DNA of 64,000 bases from the NCBI GenBank assembly GCA_023038255.1, contig CP082927.1, positions 696,146 to 760,145 on the forward strand, given 5' to 3'. Each line of letters opens with the position of its first letter. The first letter of the stretch is position 1. Below the pieces are notes generated by a model, which saw nothing but the letters and a program-made list of their open reading frames with translations, searched no databases and was not told the DNA's origin. This DNA comes from Candidatus Peribacteria bacterium. Lineage in GTDB: Bacteria > Patescibacteriota > Gracilibacteria > Peribacterales > Peribacteraceae. Below, piece after piece: positions 19,703 to 22,917 of the stretch. The translations under genes and the position numbers were made by a program.

Positions 19703-21202
19703 TTATTCCCCGGCGTACTGCACCGGGCTGCTCAGAATATTCAGAGGCTGAAGCTGGATGACAACCGTACGCTGTCCGCGCGGGAGCATCTGCACAGTCG
19801 CAACACCGTTCTTGAAGTCTTTCCCTGTGAGCACGGCTGGCTCGAATTCAGCGTCACCGTAGGCGGTACGCATGTAGACTTTCTGGGAGAGTGACTCTCC
19901 GGAGATTGTCTTATTGTCTGCATCCTTGAGAGTCAGACGAACCGTCTGCCATTTGCGTTCTGTATATTTGGAAGCTGTTTCAATCGTAATTGTGTGAATG
20001 GTTTTGACCGGAGGAGCAGCGACAATAACCGGAGCGGGAGCGAGTGCTTCAGCCGGCTGTGTACCGGAAACCACTGTTTGCTTCTGAATGACCGTCGGCT
20101 TTGTAGCAGTTGCAACGGTCTGCGTCACAACCGGACGGGTCGCTGCAAGAGCAACGCGGTCTGCGCGGCGCTTGGCTGCAAGCTGTGCAGCAGTCAGTTT
20201 CGGTTCCGTCGCTTTCACAACGGTTGTCGGCTTTTTGACAGTATTAGATGCAACAGTTGTTGGAGCTGACTGCTTATACTTTGCAGCAGGATAGTTCATC
20301 TGTGCGACCACAGACGGGTTTACCGTGTACTGATAGGCAATGTCCTGCTTGAATCCTTTATTGACGGCAGTGTAGGTATTCAGATTGGCCTGACGCAGTT
20401 CCTCACCGGTAAACGGCCAGTACGGATGCCACGGAGCTTCATCACGGTCGACCTGGAAGTGGAGGTGCGGGCCGGATGCATCACCGGTTTTACCGGAGAG
20501 TCCGATCTGCTGACCCTTCTGCACAGTGTCACCAACAGCGACAAGCTGTGCACTCAAGTGAGCATACACGGAGTGGAGCACTGTTTCGTAATCAGGATTG
20601 GACGGATCCGGCATGTGCGGGTGGCGGATGACGATTAACTGACCGAATCCATTGGAATCATTTTTCACAACCGTCACAACACCATTTGCAATCGAGCGGA
20701 TAGGAGTGCCGACCGGAACACGGATATCGACACCCGGGTGACTGCCCTTTCCTTCAATACCCTTATCGTAATCTCCCATGTAGGCAACGGAGTAGACATC
20801 TCCTCCTTCATCACCGCTCTTCGTCCGCTCATGCTGGGAATCGTATGCCGGAAGCGGAATAAGAAGATCCTGCGGAATCTGGCGGTAGGTATTTTCCTCT
20901 GCATTTCCTCCGTAGGTCGACCACTTGGAATAATCCGGGACATACGCAATCGGAGGGACTGTTCCGGTGTAGGCGATCAGACTATCATCGTAGTTACCAA
21001 GTGCTGCTTTCCAGAAAGCGTACCATCCATGCTCCCCTACCATGTTTCCTGTAATAAACGCGACGAGCGACAATACGGCCACCAGGAATGATGACTTCTG
21101 TTTCATGTACGCAATCGTCTGCTTCGGCGGATCTTTCCGGCGGCGAATCACTTTTTTTGAAAAACCTGCTTTCTTTGCCGATTTGATCTTCGTTAGGTGC
21201 AT
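19703..21202 (-). CDS. M23-family peptidoglycan endopeptidase, membrane-anchored
   Basis: A 499-residue cell-wall hydrolase. A basic cytoplasmic start (IRRRKDPPKQ) and one membrane helix (SSFLVAVLSLVAFITGNMV, about residues 37-55) precede an exported LytM/M23 domain. Zinc ligands are visible: HPGVDIRV (HxxxD), and HLHFQV (HxH) after SGKTGDASGP. The C-terminal 200 residues are a Thr/Ala/Pro-rich linker and a beta-rich tail. The minus-strand promoter TTGACT...TATTAT lies in the shared region with the divergent tsaE-HD gene. It probably cuts stem-peptide cross-links during growth or division. Confidence 0.9.
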   Translation of the reverse strand: MHLTKIKSAKKAGFSKKVIRRRKDPPKQTIAYMKQKSSFLVAVLSLVAFITGNMVGEHGWYAFWKAALGNYDDSLIAYTGTVPPIAYVPDYSKWSTYGGNAEENTYRQIPQDLLIPLPAYDSQHERTKSGDEGGDVYSVAYMGDYDKGIEGKGSHPGVDIRVPVGTPIRSIANGVVTVVKNDSNGFGQLIVIRHPHMPDPSNPDYETVLHSVYAHLSAQLVAVGDTVQKGQQIGLSGKTGDASGPHLHFQVDRDEAPWHPYWPFTGEELRQANLNTYTAVNKGFKQDIAYQYTVNPSVVAQMNYPAAKYKQSAPTTVASNTVKKPTTVVKATEPKLTAAQLAAKRRADRVALAATRPVVTQTVATATKPTVIQKQTVVSGTQPAEALAPAPVIVAAPPVKTIHTITIETASKYTERKWQTVRLTLKDADNKTISGESLSQKVYMRTAYGDAEFEPAVLTGKDFKNGVATVQMLPRGQRTVVIQLQPLNILSSPVQYAGE

Positions 21203-21259: not shown

Positions 21260-22279
21260 ATGAACCATCCCCTCCACCTCCGGCTGTCTGATGCGGAAAA
21301 AACCCGTTTTGCTGGTGAATCTTTGGCTGATTCGCTCTACGGCGATTCCATCACGATTTTCCTGACTGGCGATCTGGGCGCTGGAAAGACCACCTTCCTC
21401 CAGGGATTTGCAAAAAAACTCGGCATTACAGATCCGCTCACCAGTCCGACGTACGCTCTGGAGCAGCGATATGCCACAAACCGCGATCTTCCGCTCATTC
21501 ACCTGGATCTGTACCGATTGAACGAGCGCGACAGTGTCCAGCTGGTGGAATCGACAGAGGACCTGCCAGGCATCCGCTGTATTGAGTGGGCAAACAGACT
21601 CCCGGACAGCATGAAAGACCGGTACGCCATCAGTCTGCATCTGGAAGAAGACGGAAGCGGACGCCATCTCCGGGCACAGTTTGGTGACACGGACATTCCA
21701 ACCGAAAAACAGATTGATGACTGGCGTGCGGAAACCATGATTTCTCCGCATATTACCGCACACTGTGAAGCAGTCGCCCGCGTATCGTCAATGCTTGCAG
21801 ATGCATTGATTGCAAACGGACAGATTGTCCGCAAAGACGCACTTGTTGCAGCTGCACGTCTGCACGATCTTCTGCGGTTTGTGGATTTTAAAGGAGTACG
21901 GCCGGTGGGCATTGTCGAAACAGCGGAGACATTGCAGACCTGGGAGATATGGAAAAAGCGCTATCCGGTTGGGAAACACGAGGCAGCCTGCAGTCAGTTC
22001 CTCGCAGAGGAAGGATTTTCCGTTCTCTCACAAATAGTGGAAACCCACGGGTTGCGTGCTCCCCTTCCCTCCATGCAGACCGTTGAGCAGAAACTGCTGT
22101 TCTATGCAGATAAACGCTGCCTGATGGACCGGATTGTCACAGTCAACGAACGCTTTGACGACTTCGTCATGCGCTACGGAAACGGTCAAAAATCAGTGGA
22201 CCACGATACGTGGTACACATTCACAAAAGAGATTGAGGCCGATCTCTTCCCGAATGGTGCCCCAGATCTCTTCTCCTGA
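21260..22279 (+). CDS. tsaE: TsaE ATPase fused to an HD-domain hydrolase
   Basis: A 339-residue two-domain protein. Residues 1-150 are TsaE, the ATPase needed with TsaB/TsaD to make the tRNA modification t6A: Walker A GDLGAGKTTF (about 37-46), TSPTYALEQRY and HLDLYRL. Residues about 160-335 form an HD phosphohydrolase-like domain: HCEAVARVSSML, ARLHDLLRFVDF (HD pair), KHEAACSQFL, VETHGLRA and FYADKRCLMDRI. TsaE is normally about 150 residues and alone. No frameshift or internal stop separates the halves. The HD substrate is unknown; a nucleotide is usual for the fold. Confidence 0.9.
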   Translation: MNHPLHLRLSDAEKTRFAGESLADSLYGDSITIFLTGDLGAGKTTFLQGFAKKLGITDPLTSPTYALEQRYATNRDLPLIHLDLYRLNERDSVQLVESTEDLPGIRCIEWANRLPDSMKDRYAISLHLEEDGSGRHLRAQFGDTDIPTEKQIDDWRAETMISPHITAHCEAVARVSSMLADALIANGQIVRKDALVAAARLHDLLRFVDFKGVRPVGIVETAETLQTWEIWKKRYPVGKHEAACSQFLAEEGFSVLSQIVETHGLRAPLPSMQTVEQKLLFYADKRCLMDRIVTVNERFDDFVMRYGNGQKSVDHDTWYTFTKEIEADLFPNGAPDLFS

Positions 22280-22296: not shown

Positions 22297-22917
22297 TCAG
22301 ATATTCCACGGAATCAGCTGCTCCAGAAGCATCTCTTTGAATTCAGCAATACTCAGTCCAAGAATACCCGGGGCGATTGCAAGGAAGAACAGCGACAGAC
22401 ACAGCGTCGATGCATACACACATTCTGCAAGTGACCAGAATCTGCGCGGACGTTCGGTCGGTGTGTGCAGATAGGCAGGAACATTGAAGACTATACGCAA
22501 TGTGTGATGAAGAATCGTAAGTTTCGGAAGGAGGACTGCCAGACCGCGCATGACAATGACGTGTGTCAGTTTGGTCCCGCTCAGTCCTGCGATAATCGGC
22601 AGAGTGGAATGCAGATACACAACAGAGCTCAATGCCAGGAAGAACAGTGCAATATCGGCAATACTCTCACGGAACACGGTGAATGCAGCATTTGCTCTTT
22701 TTTTGCGGAGATAAAAGCGGTATTTGATGAAGTCGAGCACAAGATGCAGCCCAATCAGAACCGCAAAGAATCCCAGATTGAAAATACCGGCAAAAATGAC
22801 CGCTAGCATGAAGTACGCTGCATGGAATGCAGGCAATTCCTCATAGCTAAAGCCAAAGGGTCTAAACGCGATGCTCGTCCTGAGCGTCGTCGAAGGATGG
22901 GGGTATGTGGTTCGCAT
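22297..22917 (-). CDS. Polytopic membrane protein of unknown function
   Basis: A 206-residue protein with about five hydrophobic segments (AYFMLAVIFAGIFNLGFF, LIGLHLVLDFI, IALFFLALSSVVYLH, TLCLSLFFLAIAPGILGL). No family recognised. Residues 5-16 (YPHPSTTLRTSI) are encoded by a REP-like repeat that sits inside the reading frame. The ATG at 22917 lies 11 bases after TATAAT (22929-22934), so the repeat-encoded segment is probably translated; a start at a downstream Met would remove it. Confidence 0.6.
   Translation of the reverse strand: MRTTYPHPSTTLRTSIAFRPFGFSYEELPAFHAAYFMLAVIFAGIFNLGFFAVLIGLHLVLDFIKYRFYLRKKRANAAFTVFRESIADIALFFLALSSVVYLHSTLPIIAGLSGTKLTHVIVMRGLAVLLPKLTILHHTLRIVFNVPAYLHTPTERPRRFWSLAECVYASTLCLSLFFLAIAPGILGLSIAEFKEMLLEQLIPWNI
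22871..22900. repeat. REP-like element inside a coding N-terminus
   Basis: TCCTGAGCGTCGTCGAAGGA is an imperfect palindrome (TCCT/AGGA) of the same type as the pair at 11379-11464. Confidence 0.65.

Follow-up and report, generated by a model that had tools for sequence, protein, structure and literature searches.

The window analysed here is a stretch of 64,000 nucleotides from a Candidatus Peribacteria genome, and the gene of interest lies at positions 21260–22279 (+). A single open frame runs from ATG to TGA with no internal stop and encodes 339 amino acids. It joins an N-terminal TsaE domain (aa 1–145, 21260–21694 (+)) to a C-terminal HD domain (about aa 162–335, 21743–22264 (+)) through a linker region (aa 146–161, 21695–21742 (+)) that holds a helix at residues 149–158. 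The uninterrupted frame, together with recognition of both domains by Pfam and by fold, bears out the single-frame joining of TsaE to HD claimed in the original prediction. Upstream lies a divergent M23 peptidase gene (19703–21202 (−); PF01551, E 5e-26), a neighbour in many relatives that stands outside the system and whose orientation limits the transcript to tsaE-HD. Judged from the sequences, a divergent M23-peptidase-like ORF is also found upstream at loci L035, L037, L045, L046, L048, L053, L060 and L068. In most neighbourhoods examined, tsaE-HD is preceded by such a divergent gene and, as a rule, followed by a convergent one, and tsaE and HD are therefore probably carried on one transcript with nothing else. 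In the window the fusion gene is followed by a gene for a 206-aa predicted membrane protein with no Pfam match (22297–22917 (−)); a similar-looking ORF also follows the fusion in genome G008 (L043:4728-5318).

N6-threonylcarbamoyladenosine (t6A) is an essential tRNA modification of near-universal occurrence. The N-terminal half of the window protein is TsaE by the curated cut-offs of PF02367 (residues 10–131, E 2e-28, 99.3 bits versus a cut-off of 26.6) and TIGR00150 (88.2 bits versus 60.1). Consistently, the top Foldseek match of this half was B. subtilis YdiB/TsaE (5np9, E 1.8e-9). The Walker A motif spans G37–T44 (GDLGAGKT, 21368–21391 (+)), and its residues G37, G40, G42, K43 and T44 are invariant in 80/80 sequences, as are S62, P63, H81, D83, E109 and W110. 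The half thus shares its conserved residues, fold and length with TsaE (YjeE/YdiB), whereas only the window protein adds a C-terminal HD domain. The fusion is the only TsaE copy in the genome, which is a single contig of 1,239,242 bp and 99% complete. TsaD, TsaB and TsaC are encoded elsewhere in the same genome, indicating that the t6A pathway is complete and that the fusion protein must be its TsaE.

The C-terminal half was recognised less readily by sequence. PF01966 scored 20.6 bits with the full-length protein, below the cut-off of 22, and 22.6 bits, above it, when the half was scanned alone; clear relatives score far higher, up to 51.4 bits in the split homologue at L045. The AlphaFold2 model of the whole protein had a pLDDT of 93.1 and a pTM of 0.92, with high confidence throughout the linker, and the HD half modelled alone had a pLDDT of 92.1. 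When the whole model was searched with Foldseek, the solved structures matching the HD part were headed by YqeK (3ccg), PA4781 (4r8z), Bd1817 and PgpH (4s1c). The HD half alone matched PDB entries at E about 0.02–0.04, TM about 0.5 and probability about 1. A PDB sequence search with this half gave no relevant match, a PDB profile search gave only weak matches to 1xx7 and 2cqz for the HD part, and the viral fold library that we searched yielded nothing informative. Going by alignment and model, the C-terminal half combines the ligands of the HD superfamily (PF01966) with its all-helical fold.

The putative metal site of this domain is strongly conserved. Its six ligands are His168 (21761–21763), the HD motif His202–Asp203 (21863–21868), His240 (21977–21979), His263 (22046–22048) and Asp284 (22109–22111), all on the (+) strand; they are invariant in 73/73 aligned proteins, the set comprising those outside family f4 and two decayed copies (L071, degenerate; L043, deleted). 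Many of these proteins are only 25–50% identical to the window protein. R298 and E326 are invariant as well (73/73), and position 206, four residues after the HD histidine, is Arg or Lys in 73/73 (Arg206 here, 21875–21877 (+)). In six f4 proteins, both ligands assigned to the second metal are exchanged, His240 for Asp and His263 for Gln, leaving only the core mononuclear H...HD...D set; these domains (L063, L072, L073, L076, L080 and L044) occur both fused and split, and possibly represent a mononuclear or otherwise altered enzyme. The HD pair with flanking His and Asp residues that had been read from the letters was confirmed, and the structure prediction that had been suggested as a check returned an HD fold at high model confidence with intact-looking metal site residues.

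We surveyed the distribution of the architecture in 58 relatives, in 288 genomes of the class (32 families) and in 380 genomes of the phylum, 37 from the class and 343 from outside it. Among the 58 relatives, nearly every genome of the same family carried the fusion at full length. In the class sample, 56 of 57 family genomes matched; the copy in G008 is deleted through the HD part, which leaves 55 intact fusions. An HD partner was found in 15 of the 32 class families, either fused to TsaE or directly downstream on the same strand, and the loci examined comprised 51 fused and 30 split cases. Besides the family of the window genome, the fused state occurs in f2, f9, f11, f12, f15, f31 and part of f4 and f18, and the split state in f18, f20, f21, f23, f26, f27, f30 and the rest of f4. 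In f12, a family of the same class in which TGA is a sense codon, the fusion reads through under code 25; a family with this code fits the class named Gracilibacteria by GTDB, the window genome's own family being a probable member of the Peribacteria. The same domain order, which the original prediction had proposed to look for in other Patescibacteria, therefore recurs in the fusion's own family and in several further class families. The architecture is far beyond chance, because it is full length in nearly all family genomes and in several other families with its ligands conserved throughout.

In the split state, all 30 pairs are on the same strand with tsaE first and usually overlap. Relative to the tsaE stop, the HD start codon falls anywhere from 74 nt ahead of it to 53 nt beyond it; the distance is mostly no more than 20 nt, and overlaps of 4 nt or 8 nt are frequent. 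It had been foreseen that relatives might carry the two domains on separate genes and that a sequencing error might have joined them here. Separate genes are indeed found in relatives, but at these 30 loci they are adjacent, co-oriented and mostly overlapping. Although such split versions in sister families could hint at a sequencing or assembly error, or at two chance neighbours run together when a stop codon was lost, the presence of the fusion in the other fused families and in 55 of the 57 genomes of its own family makes this vanishingly improbable, and its recurrence in dozens of independent genomes rules out a sequencing error.

In a tree of the concatenated halves, taken as unrooted, most families held together, with at least four changes, in either direction, between the fused and split states. 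Many class families have TsaE alone without an HD partner, and two members of f18, G067 and G125, have no HD gene beside tsaE. Among the 343 genomes sampled outside the class, strong HD orthologues were found only in family f50, where they are not beside tsaE (L061, L062). This pattern suggests that the system was inherited vertically inside a single class, switched repeatedly between operon and fusion and was lost several times. A search of named genomes with a degenerate pattern built on a single protein, which reaches close relatives only, found the fusion in only one Patescibacteria relative. A plasmid search gave no match to the HD half, and in a phage search only the TsaE half was matched among the matches listed.

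Weaker relatives of the HD domain occur in other contexts (L105–L109). In f75, a short related HD protein lies away from tsaE (L108:2974-3510, L109:3194-3730), flanked on its two sides by genes like mreB and like an OB/HD nuclease, and in f47 another related HD protein comes after a polA-like gene (L105:3459-4106, L106:3183-3899); these neighbours were named from their sequences, unscanned. TsaE is also fused to another member of the t6A pathway: single-frame fusions of TsaE to TsaC (Sua5/YrdC) are present in the Patescibacteria families f126 and f85 (L110:971-2023 (−), L111:841-2001 (−)), with the TsaC part matching PF01300 at E 8e-46 and 1e-49. The statement that TsaE normally stands alone holds for most genomes.

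We then compared the HD half with known HD families. The nearest profiles were NF045665 (HD part), TIGR00295, NF009343 (C-terminal part) and NF005519 (NadD-YqeK), that is to say profiles of HD domains joined to enzymes that handle nucleotides or tRNA. The closest was the HD region of the DVU_1551 family NTP transferase (NF045665), matched by 15/15 members with a best E of 2e-22. That region follows a nucleotidyltransferase, whereas the window protein has none, and membership of NF045665 was rejected, since the match is confined to profile positions of about 196–358 and reaches 70.5 bits versus 315. The C-terminal HD region of archaeal tRNA (cytidine-56-2'-O)-methyltransferase (NF009343/PRK12703) matched weakly (best E 3e-7); like TsaE this is a tRNA-modification enzyme, but the modification and the partner domain are unrelated.

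The residue layout was closest to that of YqeK (COG1713). The S. pyogenes YqeK residues are H29, D59, K62, H91, H117 and D135, and Lys62 contacts ADP (PMC11857287); the window protein shares the H...HD...K/R...H...H...D layout, with predicted metals, as well as the fold and the basic residue at +4, Arg206 being the equivalent of Lys62. YqeK, a symmetrical Ap4A hydrolase, has a six-ligand diiron site without the extra His of phosphodiesterases, and HD-GYP/PgpH phosphodiesterases are defined by a seven-ligand HH signature and a GYP motif (PMC8177086). H263 is not followed by a second His, and the alignment has no conserved GYP, so membership of HD-GYP/PgpH was rejected; by motif, the HD half is YqeK-like, not HD-GYP. 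Membership of YqeK itself (TIGR00488) was also rejected, with scores far below the cut-off and a match in 1/15 members (E 0.001), and in contrast to YqeK the HD half has other conserved residues, W228, K285, R286, R298 and E326. A further likeness is that both are HD hydrolases, by prediction in the window protein, fused to an adenylate-handling enzyme, the partner being NadD for YqeK in mycoplasmas and TsaE here.

We propose, with a probability of roughly 45%, that the HD half is a YqeK-like, binuclear phosphohydrolase acting on adenine nucleotides beside TsaD-TsaB-TsaE. TsaE resets TsaD-TsaB using ATP and yields ADP, AMP leaves TsaD, and the intermediate TC-AMP is unstable (PMC11648230; PMC9654439). 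TsaE has a higher affinity for ADP than for ATP. With ADP bound, it could bring the cycle to a halt, and a review names its reset inside the cell as an unanswered question (PMC9654439). The TsaE half would do the ordinary TsaE job, using ATP to reset TsaD-TsaB each time a t6A transfer has taken place. The HD half, a separate protein encoded right after tsaE in sister families, would probably be a binuclear, catalytically active enzyme, and tethering would place a nucleotide-phosphate hydrolase where ATP and TC-AMP are consumed and ADP and AMP released. It would most likely remove some adenine nucleotide that would otherwise stall or foul the cycle, such as ADP, Ap4A-type side products or stray or faulty adenylates, to the benefit of t6A synthesis. 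This would parallel the NadD-fused YqeK of JCVI-Syn3A, which removes faulty adenylyl products (PMC9426524).

Several features support the adenine-nucleotide reading: the class-wide fusion or adjacency, the ligand conservation, the YqeK layout and a possible gap in the genome's own repertoire. A survey of Ap4A hydrolases confined to YqeK (E 0.001) and ApaH found neither in the genome; an asymmetric Nudix-type enzyme might fill the place, so the vacancy is only a possible one. In the class sample, sub-threshold ApaH-like matches fell mostly in f10, f14 and f22, families in which no HD partner was seen; this complementarity across families is weak and only suggestive. Against this reading, the HD half is only weakly YqeK-like by sequence and its Foldseek E-values are modest. 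The HD partner is also not essential for t6A, given the families with TsaE alone, the genomes G067, G125 and G008, and the replaced ligands of f4. The nucleotide- or phosphate-hydrolysing activity put forward in the original prediction is plausible, given the intact-looking HD metal site; the roles suggested there, by-product removal or control through a nucleotide signal, stay hypothetical.

Alternatively, the HD half could destroy or sense a nucleotide signal, (p)ppGpp or a cyclic dinucleotide, tying t6A and translation to the stress state. HD-GYP and PgpH phosphodiesterases are among its matches by fold, and the genome encodes a RelA/SpoT protein; yet that protein already has an HD hydrolase region of its own, and the alignment shows neither the seven-ligand HH signature nor GYP. 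No DAC and no GGDEF match was found in the genome, which disfavours cyclic-dinucleotide regulation, and we consider a signalling role unlikely.

The HD half might instead act on tRNA, as a phosphodiesterase or phosphatase on the termini or the anticodon loop, coupling processing or quality control to t6A. HD domains are fused to SPOUT RNA methyltransferases too (PMC1829167), the archaeal tRNA methyltransferase profile matches this one through its C-terminal part, and the genome's CCA-adding-enzyme-like protein, named from its sequence without a profile scan, also carries an HD domain. This is quite improbable, as YqeK, a small-nucleotide enzyme, has the most similar layout and is also a good match in structure, and TsaD-TsaB cannot bind TsaE and tRNA at the same time (PMC9654439). 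Another HD protein of this genome (G000:C1:1131679-1131810; L091:913-1911) is weakly like the HD part of Cas3g.

We are equally doubtful that the HD half is mainly a scaffold helping TsaE to bind TsaD-TsaB, with catalysis irrelevant. Such a role would fit a domain that is dispensable in several lineages and keeps its fold in f4 despite altered second-metal ligands, but a scaffold would not require six invariant ligands across such divergent proteins, and where the genes are split the HD domain exists as a protein of its own.

A more specific form of the adenine-nucleotide reading is that the HD half is the missing TsaE recycling factor, hydrolysing ADP or a related inhibitory adenine nucleotide after TsaE fires. 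We give this low odds; if it were true, the fused enzyme would reset itself, and t6A synthesis would have a built-in nucleotide-clearing step undescribed for E. coli or B. subtilis.

Our literature search, with most subscription journals outside its scope, found no description of a TsaE/YjeE-HD fusion, and nothing on DVU_1551, on Trm56 with HD or on Patescibacteria with TsaE. Each half is known on its own; what the literature searched does not describe is their combination, its conservation across the class as operon or fusion, and the intact HD site. Together they point to what may be an undescribed extra step in the universal t6A pathway. Why bacterial TsaD-TsaB requires TsaE and ATP is not fully explained, and a putative HD hydrolase that time and again is fused to TsaE, or encoded with TsaE and no other gene, offers a natural hint. 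Once found, the substrate of the HD domain would identify the nucleotide by which the TsaE cycle is limited or fouled, and the association gives a lead to the function of a widely kept HD family in minimal-genome bacteria.
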